25,014 nucleotides of DNA, from positions 1 to 25,014 of the IMG/VR virus record IMGVR_UViG_3300027754_000409. The stretch is one strand, 5' to 3'. Numbering within the stretch: the stretch's first letter is position 1; the number at the start of each line of letters is the position of its first letter. Origin of the DNA: a virus. The position numbers were made by a program, and so were the translations under genes. The notes beneath the pieces are model-generated. The model saw nothing but the letters and a program-made list of their open reading frames with translations, was not told where the DNA came from and ran no database searches. Below, piece after piece: positions 14,928 to 19,250 of this stretch.

Positions 14928-15137
14928 TCAATTATCTTTAACGTTATATTTTAATCTTCCGTGACTTGTGTATAATCTTAAATCAATCGTATCGCTATAA
15001 ATATCCTCTTGAGTTACTATTCCCCAGTCTTTTGCAATGACTGATTTTTTTTCTATTGTCTGTTTATTTTTAATCGCACAAAAATAAGCATAGCAAATAA
15101 ATGCCAGCGCAGTTCCGTAAATTAGTTTTCTTTTCAT
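14928..15137 (-). CDS. Small membrane-anchored or secreted protein
   Basis: A 69-residue protein with a positively charged start (MKRKLIYG) and a hydrophobic helix (about 5-21) ending at YFCAIKNKQ, followed by a short soluble tail of about 45 residues. The helix could be a signal anchor; a Cys at residue 20 does not sit in a convincing lipobox. Function unknown. It starts with a one-base overlap (TAATG) after the 249-residue gene. A surface or envelope role, for example against superinfection, is only a guess from topology. Confidence 0.6.
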   Translation of the reverse strand: MKRKLIYGTALAFICYAYFCAIKNKQTIEKKSVIAKDWGIVTQEDIYSDTIDLRLYTSHGRLKYNVKDN

Positions 15138-15886
15138 TATTCGTTTGGTTTAATAGTTCCATTATTATCGATATAACAATCAAATGTAACTAATGAATTT
15201 ATAAATTTAATATACCCTTGAGTTTTGCAGTGCATTTTCCGTTCTTCAACATCGTGAATATTAGAATATTTATTCCAAAGTTCAATTCGTTCTTCTTTTG
15301 ATATTGTCGGAATCTTAAATTGCTCCAGGTAATCAAATAGGATTGATAAGCCCCCAGCGATAAATGTAAATTTCTTATCATTCTTCTCGCAGTATCTAAT
15401 CTGATTTGCATATTCGTTAGCCGTGTCAATCGCTTGCTTCATTAATTCTTTATCACTTGGTTTTTCTTTCAGCTCTATTGGTTTAGGTAGGTTTTTAATT
15501 TCTTGTCTTGCATACTCCTGGTAAGCACTCATAATTCTTCCAAAGTATTCGCAAGAGAAATTTTCATAGCATTTAGAATCGATATTTAACTTTCCAGCAA
15601 CTGCCATTTCAAAGGCTAATTTTATTTCCTCGCAAGTATTATTTCCAAAATTAGATTTAACAAAATTGGTCAATACAAACTTTTCTTCTTCAGTAGGTAG
15701 ATTGCTTCCTCGTAAGCCAACCAAAAGCATCGAGTAACGTAATGCTTGCTTTATAGTATCTTCGTTGCTTACACGCAAAGTATGACCTATCTGTGCTTGT
15801 CTTATTGCTATTGCATTACCACTTCCTAAGTGCTTCCATTCTTGCGGCACTTGTTCCAAGTTTAGGTTCGTTGTTTGAATTTCCAT
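15137..15886 (-). CDS. Unknown 249-residue protein in helicase-loader position
   Basis: A helical, acidic protein with no Walker motif and no recognised domain. It starts MEIQTTNLNLEQVPQEW and has a Cys-rich patch near 105-115 (SKCYENFSCEYF). It directly follows the replication initiator and overlaps its last 71 bp in another frame. In phages with lambda O/P or DnaD-type layouts the gene after the initiator often loads the host helicase, so that role is suggested by position only. Moderate composition similarity to primosomal helical proteins is the sole further hint. The next in-frame Met is far downstream, so the long overlap cannot be avoided by choosing another start. Confidence 0.6.
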   Translation of the reverse strand: MEIQTTNLNLEQVPQEWKHLGSGNAIAIRQAQIGHTLRVSNEDTIKQALRYSMLLVGLRGSNLPTEEEKFVLTNFVKSNFGNNTCEEIKLAFEMAVAGKLNIDSKCYENFSCEYFGRIMSAYQEYARQEIKNLPKPIELKEKPSDKELMKQAIDTANEYANQIRYCEKNDKKFTFIAGGLSILFDYLEQFKIPTISKEERIELWNKYSNIHDVEERKMHCKTQGYIKFINSLVTFDCYIDNNGTIKPNE

Positions 15887-16535
15887 TATTGCTAAATTTA
15901 TTTGCGTTAGTTAACCAGGTATTTATTCTTCTGCTAATATCAAAAAACTTTTCAACTTGCCATCGTTCTTTCCCTTTGTTATTTTTCTCTGACCAATAAG
16001 AATAAAAATTAGTGTATTCAATTCCTAAATCAGCAATATGGGGAGAAAGCATTTCAACCAAACTATACTCTTCTTTTATTTCATTTACTTTACTTTCTTT
16101 TTCTTTACTTTCCTTTACTTTACTTTCCTTTGTTGAACGGTCGTTGAACGGTTGTTGAACGGTCGTTGAAATTTCAATTCCCCTTCTCTTGTCTGCGCTC
16201 TTTTGACCAGCAATTTTTCTTTGTTCTTTCATCTTAAAATATGGCTCTAAGTAAACCAACATCTTAGGACTAAAGAATTTTTGTTCTTCGTCAATTTCAA
16301 ACAATCCGTAGTTACAAATAGCCACTCTTACCTTTGCTTCAGATACACCAAACTCTTCGGCTAACAAATCCAAATCATCCAAAGGATACATTAAGTCTTG
16401 TTGTTCTCTTAGCGTTTCTAATAGCATAAAATAAATGCCATAACCTTCCGTTCCAAGTTCCTTTCGCAACCTCCTAATTTTCCTATCATGCCTGGCATTG
16501 CAGAAATGTGGGAAATAAAATGCTTCTTTTTCCAT
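15816..16535 (-). CDS. Replication initiator-like protein (Lin1244/Lin1753-type N-terminus)
   Basis: A 239-residue protein from the ATG at 16535; an upstream in-frame ATG at 16565 would add a hydrophobic, unlikely tail. Residues 1-100 (KEAFYFPHF, RKIRRLRKELGTEGYGIYF, LAEEFGVSEAKVR) form the Lin1244/Lin1753-like winged-helix domain common in phage replication proteins. A low-complexity Lys/Glu/Ser linker (about 133-157) follows, then a C-terminal domain ending LGTSAARMEALRKW. The linker DNA holds 11-bp tandem repeats and a purine-biased tract, so the gene probably contains the origin the protein binds. It has its own promoter (16649-16679) and a structured leader. Confidence 0.78.
   Translation of the reverse strand: MEKEAFYFPHFCNARHDRKIRRLRKELGTEGYGIYFMLLETLREQQDLMYPLDDLDLLAEEFGVSEAKVRVAICNYGLFEIDEEQKFFSPKMLVYLEPYFKMKEQRKIAGQKSADKRRGIEISTTVQQPFNDRSTKESKVKESKEKESKVNEIKEEYSLVEMLSPHIADLGIEYTNFYSYWSEKNNKGKERWQVEKFFDISRRINTWLTNANKFSNNGNSNNEPKLGTSAARMEALRKW
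16071..16130 (-). other. Purine-biased, C-free tract next to the iterons
   Basis: Sixty bases contain no C on the coding strand (no G on the plus strand) and are made of GAAAG/TAAAG-like words. They encode the Lys/Glu/Ser linker of the initiator. Strand-asymmetric AT-rich DNA beside iterons is typical of the unwinding element of phage origins such as that of lambda. The protein-level low complexity could also explain the base bias. Confidence 0.6.
16131..16170. repeat. Array of 11-bp tandem repeats, candidate replication origin iterons
   Basis: Three full 11-bp units at 16131-16141, 16142-16152 and 16153-16163 read yGTTGAACGGT on the plus strand (first base T, C, T), followed by seven matching bases of a fourth at 16164-16170. 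The period is 11, not a multiple of three, so the repeat passes through all three reading frames of the initiator gene and cannot come from a protein repeat. Near one helical turn per unit places all copies on one face of the DNA, as in iteron-type origins. Confidence 0.78.
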
Positions 16536-16576
16536 ATTAATTATTATAAAATAAAAATGCCTCATAAATCCATTGG

Positions 16577-18549: not shown

Positions 18550-19101
18550 TTATTGGTTAATTGTGAAACTTAATTTTTTAGTTTTAAATAATGATAATAT
18601 ATTTTGGTCGTTATTAACAATGTGTGATTTTAGTGCGTATAAATCATTTAATTCATCAATGGAATTACAAGCATCAATTAATTTTTTCCATTGTGTTAAA
18701 GACAAAGGTACTATTATTGGCTTATTAGACTCCGCTTGTGTACCAGCTGCATCTAAATCTTTATCAGTAATCAAACCAAGCATTGAGGATAAAGAGTATC
18801 TACGATAATAAGTAACTCCTGATCCATAGGATTGATACTCATTCATTGCACCGAGTTTAACTTTAGGAATGCTTGTAAACGATTCTAATGATTCGCCTGA
18901 CTCAACATGAAAGAGAATAGTTTTGATGCCATCATTCTCAAGCAATTGGCTAAAGCATAACCCATTCTTTTTAAGCAATGGATTAATAACTGAAAAGATT
19001 TGTGGAAGATCAGCATAAGTATAATTGTGACCTTTGGTATCCTTATGAATAACTGGGCATTCATTTTGGAAATTTGATAATGATTTAATTAGGTTCTTCA
19101 T
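18550..19101 (-). CDS. erf: ERF-family single-strand annealing protein
   Basis: A 183-residue recombinase of the ERF superfamily, which anneals complementary single strands during phage recombination. Visible family marks: NYTYADLPQIFSVINPLLKK (an aromatic-Ala segment near 27-46), FHVESGESL near 67-75, and the hallmark GSGVTYYRRYSLSSMLGL near 93-110, followed by the acidic ITDKDLDAAG. I start it at ATG 19101; the open frame extends 23 codons upstream, but that DNA is the coding region of the small gene before it. It lies two bases after that gene and just before an SSB-like gene, as expected for a recombination module. Confidence 0.82.
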   Translation of the reverse strand: MKNLIKSLSNFQNECPVIHKDTKGHNYTYADLPQIFSVINPLLKKNGLCFSQLLENDGIKTILFHVESGESLESFTSIPKVKLGAMNEYQSYGSGVTYYRRYSLSSMLGLITDKDLDAAGTQAESNKPIIVPLSLTQWKKLIDACNSIDELNDLYALKSHIVNNDQNILSLFKTKKLSFTINQ

Positions 19102-19103
19102 AA

Positions 19104-19250
19104 TTAGTCGGTAATTAATTGTTGAAATTTTGATTTGTAAACTCGTTCTTCTCTGCAAACTGCTGCCCAAAAGTCTTCGAGTTCATCGAAATACCAGGTG
19201 CAATAATAGAAACCAGCTTCATCTTTAAATTTTGCTTTATACTTTTTCAT
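19104..19250 (-). CDS. Unknown 48-residue protein
   Basis: Too short for most gene finders. The frame encodes MKKYKAKFKDEAGFYYCTWY then FDELEDFWAAVCREERVYKS and ends QQLITD. Aromatic- and charge-rich, it looks like a compact soluble domain rather than random sequence. It starts by ATGA overlap with the tiny membrane gene and ends two bases before the ERF start, so it fills the gap exactly. No family recognised. Confidence 0.66.
   Translation of the reverse strand: MKKYKAKFKDEAGFYYCTWYFDELEDFWAAVCREERVYKSKFQQLITD

Follow-up and report, generated by a model that had tools for sequence, protein, structure and literature searches.

The window analysed here spans the entire IMG/VR virus record IMGVR_UViG_3300027754_000409, a stretch of 25,014 bp from an incomplete genome, and its main genes all lie on the minus strand. 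Named phages gave no near DNA match to the window, and an Rfam search of it returned no match. The features of concern are a replication initiator gene, the parts of its predicted protein, the repeats within its coding sequence and two further genes:

15137–15886, minus strand: downstream gene of 249 aa, overlapping the end of the initiator gene, with phrog_26016 as its sole match
15816–16535, minus strand: initiator gene of 239 aa, Lin1244_N (PF14297; Pfam E=3.5e-15)
15819–16061, minus strand: C-terminal helical part of the initiator, residues 159–239 (AlphaFold2)
16062–16131, minus strand: AT- and purine-rich tract, a candidate DNA unwinding element (77% AT, 86% purine on the coding strand)
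16080–16175, no strand assigned: block of synonymous conservation, codons 121–152, the minimal candidate origin (synonymous change 1.3% vs 34%)
16132–16171, minus strand: 11-bp iteron array with four 7-bp cores (TRF, core scan, relatives in three frames)
16182–16214, minus strand: 'hook' IAGQKSADKRR, residues 108–118, at the end of a long helix (covariation and AlphaFold2; helix 90–119)
16272–16505, minus strand: winged-helix domain, residues 11–88 (AlphaFold2, pLDDT mostly >90)
18550–19170, minus strand: gene from the same early module, coding for an ERF-type single-strand annealing protein (PF04404, E=3e-22)

The initiator scores 56.9 bits against the Lin1244_N profile of Pfam, for which the curated cut-off is 25, and its match in PHROGs is phrog_2562, replication initiation protein (E=8e-21). 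The longest open reading frame begins at 16565; the ATG at 16535 is taken as the start by homology to relatives, which open with MEKEAFYF. Residues 123–156 are predicted to be disordered by AlphaFold2, and this is almost exactly the stretch coded by the array and the tract. A PDB fold search with the initiator gave weak matches, mostly to winged-helix proteins, none of them significant (best E 0.3). No homology to the lambda O family was found, Pfam giving Lin1244_N only and PHROGs no O-type match. The product of 15137–15886 is all-helical and its gene is also kept next to the initiator in relatives; it has no Pfam match and no PDB fold match, and is possibly a loader of an unrecognised kind. 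No known helicase or loader gene was identified within the 25-kb window, and a loader cannot be named there because the fold search with this product gave nothing. Among relatives the initiator gene has such neighbours, a DnaB_C gene following that of phage L082 and DnaC/IstB-like loader genes following those of EF62phi and the Rac prophage.

The array consists of three GTTGAAC cores (16132–16138, 16143–16149 and 16154–16160) and a degenerate GTTGAAA (16165–16171) in exact 11-bp register. On the coding strand it reads TTTCAACGACC GTTCAACAACC GTTCAACGACC GTTCAAC and passes directly into AAAGGAAAGTAAAGTAAAGGAAAGTAAAG..., so that several direct repeats lie in register within the initiator coding sequence, as they do at lambda ori and SPP1 oriL. 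TRF reports 16132–16170 with a period of 11, 3.5 copies and 92% matches. The self-match score at period 11 is 22, against a best of 15 over periods 7–30 among 60 simulated contigs of 25 kb; when the codons were redrawn 20,000 times for the same protein, the period-11 score reached at most 21, with a mean of 4.5. A search of the contig for the core-pair pattern, tolerating 3 mismatches, gave 6 matches (3 sites on both strands) where 0.08 are expected, all within the array, and no second array is present within this incomplete 25-kb contig.

The tract is built of GTAAAGGAAA-type repeats of 5, 10 and 15 bp and directly abuts the array; within it TRF finds a period of 15 at 16075–16131, and the most purine-rich 60 bp of the coding strand of the whole contig falls within it. 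An AT-rich region adjoining the repeats is again the arrangement of lambda ori and SPP1 oriL, and the synonymous sites of the tract are conserved in relatives. The first-pass annotation, made from the sequence of the window, had already described 11-bp tandem units inside a Lin1244-type replication protein gene, beside a strand-biased AT-rich tract. The units, the Pfam and PHROGs assignment of the gene and the composition of the tract all bear this out, but its coordinates for the array, 16131–16170, are off by one base. It had further reasoned that a period not divisible by three excludes a protein repeat. The conclusion that the pattern is one of DNA holds, but the argument is incomplete because three 11-bp units make up an 11-residue super-repeat (FNDRSTTVQQP).

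Selection on the DNA is best seen among close relatives. Eighty relatives of the window gene were gathered by protein similarity alone, and at least two in-register units are retained in 79 of the 81 genes (the window gene included) as the codons and the reading frame vary. The first-pass annotation had named as refuting an origin the finding of related initiator genes with no repeats at the corresponding position. Such genes were looked for in this set, and the units instead persist in nearly all of it. Across the 80 relatives, comparisons at unchanged amino acids show a different codon in 1.3% of cases within codons 121–152 and in 34% elsewhere (Mann–Whitney p=6e-17 over codons), and the block so defined takes in the array and most of the tract. 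The last core before the tract, with the AAA that follows, is read in frame 1, 0 or 2 in 33, 28 and 19 genes, and the identical DNA is translated as ISTTVQQPFNDRSTKES, LNDRSTTVQQSK or ISTTVQRPFNKGKES accordingly. What is conserved in the array and tract is the DNA, whichever frame is read, and not the peptide. The use of three frames, the synonymous depletion and the copies in noncoding DNA described below together establish selection at the DNA level, to which the first-pass annotation had taken the period to point. Such an overlap of coding sequence and candidate origin in three reading frames would be a clean case of intragenic DNA-level selection.

These observations bear directly on the idea that a functional low-complexity linker (S/T/Q/N followed by K/E/S) drives the pattern at the level of the protein. 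The linker is indeed repetitive as protein, with KESKV repeats; however, three different peptides are produced from one DNA, synonymous change is 1.3%, copies exist that are noncoding and the segment is predicted to be disordered. This explanation is already contradicted and can be given practically no weight.

The whole module of units and tract is also found in noncoding DNA of the phages L082, L148 and L140. In L082 and L148 the noncoding array and purine tract follow a Cpn10-like gene (called in L148) and precede the next gene downstream; these modules adjoin structural-type genes. In L140 the module sits between two ORFs. Whether a copy is coding or not, the tract adjoins the same flank of the array. 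L148 has a decayed copy in its initiator gene, with a single intact core left, and an intact noncoding copy at a distance of 11 kb. Two Bacteroidales loci, L171 and L219, have an array that begins about 10 bp past the Lin1244_N stop codon. The second noncoding arrays lie at about 9138 in L082 and about 2950 in L148 (locus coordinates), in the same gene context, and are possibly either operators or further origins comparable to SPP1 oriR.

For the array in the window, too, the chief alternative to an origin is an autoregulatory operator. The array would in that case be an operator placed within the gene, through which the protein regulates transcription of this gene or of those downstream, with the origin located elsewhere. 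An initiator-bound array in its own gene could block transcription, and the noncoding copies of L082 and L148, being just upstream of structural-type genes, would suit an operator too. A plain operator, however, needs no AT-rich tract, whereas coding and noncoding copies alike have one directly at the same flank of the array, with its synonymous sites conserved, and the way in which array, tract and initiator are placed corresponds to that in lambda and SPP1. The operator is considered unlikely.

The arrangement extends well beyond the close relatives. Viral contigs were scanned for GTTCAAC repeated three times in 11-bp register, which yielded 85 stretches; among the loci listed, most are inside Lin1244_N genes and most of the others, unexpectedly, inside genes of a second family, DUF1376 (PF07120). 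The array has a common position in both, just after the winged helix, and profile comparison by hhalign shows their domains to be homologous (probability 96.8, E 2e-10). With the protein as the sole query, further homologues were next gathered from viral contigs and among whole genomes belonging to three phyla, and the representatives that came from the DNA pattern scan were excluded from the period and covariation statistics because they are biased. When the linkers of 58 diverged genes were compared with a synonymous-codon null, 16 of them exceeded it at period 11, 14 at period 22 and 6 at period 33 (p≤0.01; 0.6 expected at each), whereas the winged-helix and C-terminal regions of the same genes, used as controls, gave 0–2 at these periods. 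Periods 5/10 and 7/14 are also raised in the linkers and reflect the units of the AT tract, whose lengths of 5 bp in Lin1244_N and 7 bp in DUF1376 are neither of them a multiple of three. The tracts of the Lin1244_N (Bacteroidota) type are made of GTAAA/GGAAA units, and those of DUF1376 linkers (e.g. L337–L416) of AACCAAT/AACCATA units.

The spacing was also counted through palindromes, defined as 7-mers of the form xyz-N-z'y'x' with identical arms. In 91 linkers of the two families, palindromes with the same arms are spaced 11 bp apart in 46 genes, 22 bp in 33, 33 bp in 19 and 44 bp in 12, and each other distance occurs in at most 3 genes; shuffling of the linker codons predicts 0.14 of 59 genes, against 24 of 59 observed. 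An 11-bp spacing is thus general in Lin1244_N and DUF1376 genes. About half of the sampled homologues carry no clear 11-bp array, chiefly ones that have other hook types and come from Bacteroidota and Bacillota genomes. A loose three-unit scan of genome contigs with S-centred cores was rejected as evidence of breadth, since most of its matches are unrelated 11-bp satellites, and only matches inside or beside Lin1244_N or DUF1376 genes were counted from it. Degenerate 11-bp tandem repeats resembling GTTGAACAATG occur in L167, L188, L192, L194, L196, L198, L220 and others, from Clostridia, Bacteroides and Chitinophagales MAGs, apparently unlinked to genes of either family. Long perfect 11-bp arrays were seen in a Geomonas sequence (L236, 1208–1335; about 12 units of GTTCAACGACC), with no initiator gene detected nearby, and in a Nitrososphaeraceae MAG (L239, 7672–7733; GTTGAACGGCG).

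The arms of the core vary from gene to gene, the forms observed being GTT-S-AAC, GCA-W-TGC and ATC-W-GAT, and they covary with the hook at the end of the winged-helix domain. Genes with a G-x-x-S hook and an array have GTT cores in 36 of 38 cases (a run of N accounts for one exception), and those with an R-W hook have GCA or ATC cores in 12 of 12, across both families. The association gives a Fisher p=7e-10, which is optimistic because the rows are related; phylogenetically independent pairs number 3–4 concordant and 0 discordant, too few for significance. When the GTT label is mapped on a tree built from the winged helix minus the hook, 12 changes are required, of which well-supported branches force at least 6. 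Shuffled labels require about as many; the ancestry of the domain therefore does not explain the core type. It had been predicted in writing beforehand that the arrays of new R-W genes would be of types other than GTT. This held: among 20 new R-W genes with less than 80% identity to the earlier ones, 11 have arrays, of which 10 are GCA, 1 is of another type and 0 are GTT.

Since the hook-coding DNA lies next to the array, a coupling of the two could also arise by the swap of a single short cassette. Another proposal is that the array is a recombination joint, a short shared repeat that is kept as phages swap initiator C-terminal domains across it. The C-terminal part is replaced by unrelated sequence in some relatives (e.g. 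L060, L064–L066), which retain the winged helix, hook, array and tract as in the window, and core type is scattered over the winged-helix tree; both would be expected of a joint. It would nevertheless leave unexplained the exact 11-bp phasing with unrelated cores, the palindromic nature of the cores, the match of hook to core across two families and the arrays outside the gene, and is regarded as improbable. Functionless expansion of a tandem repeat, as in a microsatellite, might be suggested by the unrelated 11-bp GTTGAAC-like satellites that some genomes have outside initiator genes. The fixed position in two domain families, the near-zero synonymous change and the covariation with the hook contradict it, and it is very improbable.

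Origins inside phage initiator genes have long been known in general. The region 16062–16175 is probably another, a phage replication origin of the iteron type embedded in the gene for its own initiator, at which binding, melting and initiation would take place. The initiator, with its winged helix and its hook on a long helix, would bind the 7-bp odd palindrome GTT-S-AAC every 11 bp; the covariation of hook and core lends this indirect support. As 11 bp is close to one helical turn, the bound initiators would be aligned on nearly one face of the DNA. Their assembly may then strain and open the abutting AT-rich tract with its purine/pyrimidine asymmetry, and the C-terminal domain may help to recruit the helicase. 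The cumulative GC skew of the window is monotonic and tracks gene direction, with no turning point at the array; it says nothing on the origin because the genes run one way.

Plasmid iteron origins of the RepA/RepE type similarly have direct repeats beside an AT-rich region; their iterons are bound by the initiator, as is proposed here, but are typically of about 17–22 bp and lie outside the rep gene. Phage lambda is closer, its origin being in the middle of O, and in a plasmid derived from an Stx phage, mutations of the iterons that leave the protein unchanged abolish replication (PMC7466680). The first-pass annotation had likened the locus to lambda O with a different initiator family, and the published order in lambda, iterons followed by an AT-rich tract inside the initiator gene (PMC7466680), agrees with this. 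Also shared are the lengthening of the linker by extra units and an N-terminal part that binds DNA, as is predicted for the window protein. The window initiator differs in belonging to another family by sequence, in its 11-bp units with a 7-bp odd palindrome and in that the unit type shifts among relatives together with the hook motif. SPP1 fits still better than lambda, having oriL inside gene 38 and a distant oriR in an intergenic late region (PMC6316719). Direct repeats and an AT-rich unwinding element, the latter a candidate here, lie inside the initiator gene in both, and a possible counterpart of oriR is seen in the far intergenic second arrays of L082 and L148.

The Lin1244_N (PF14297) proteins, to which the window gene belongs, and the DUF1376 (PF07120) proteins, such as the EF62phi replication initiation protein and E. 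coli Rac YdaU as examples from the two families, share the homologous winged-helix domain, the position of the linker and the array rule. On balance we lean, with modest confidence, towards a general reading: both families would be initiators that read 11-bp-spaced 7-bp odd palindromes in their own genes via a swappable hook, with hook and iteron changing together as a recognition code across Bacteroidota, Pseudomonadota, Campylobacterota and Bacillota. The proposed pairs are G-x-x-S with GTT-S-AAC, and R-W with GCA-W-TGC or ATC-W-GAT; a G-R-P hook perhaps pairs with a GG..CC-type core. No paper giving DUF1376, Lin1244_N or DUF4373 an origin was found, in a literature search that missed most subscription journals. 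If the reading is true, it would supply a function and a binding site for two widespread protein families, of which DUF1376 is listed in Pfam as of unknown function, and the origins of many uncultured phages could be read from sequence alone. The match of hook to iteron would offer a small, testable protein–DNA recognition code.

The Rac prophage has a known origin, oriJ, which to our knowledge is undefined, and the linker of E. coli ydaU may, judging from its sequence, be a candidate for it. The period test is not significant for ydaU, in which core-like words drift to a 12-bp spacing; by eye, an 11-bp periodicity is seen in both Rac ydaU and the EF62phi gene. In the E. coli K-12 Rac ydaU (L253, 11490–11580), degenerate GTTCAAA/TTTGAAC words with a spacing of 11–12 bp are followed by a AAAGATACAGAT tract.
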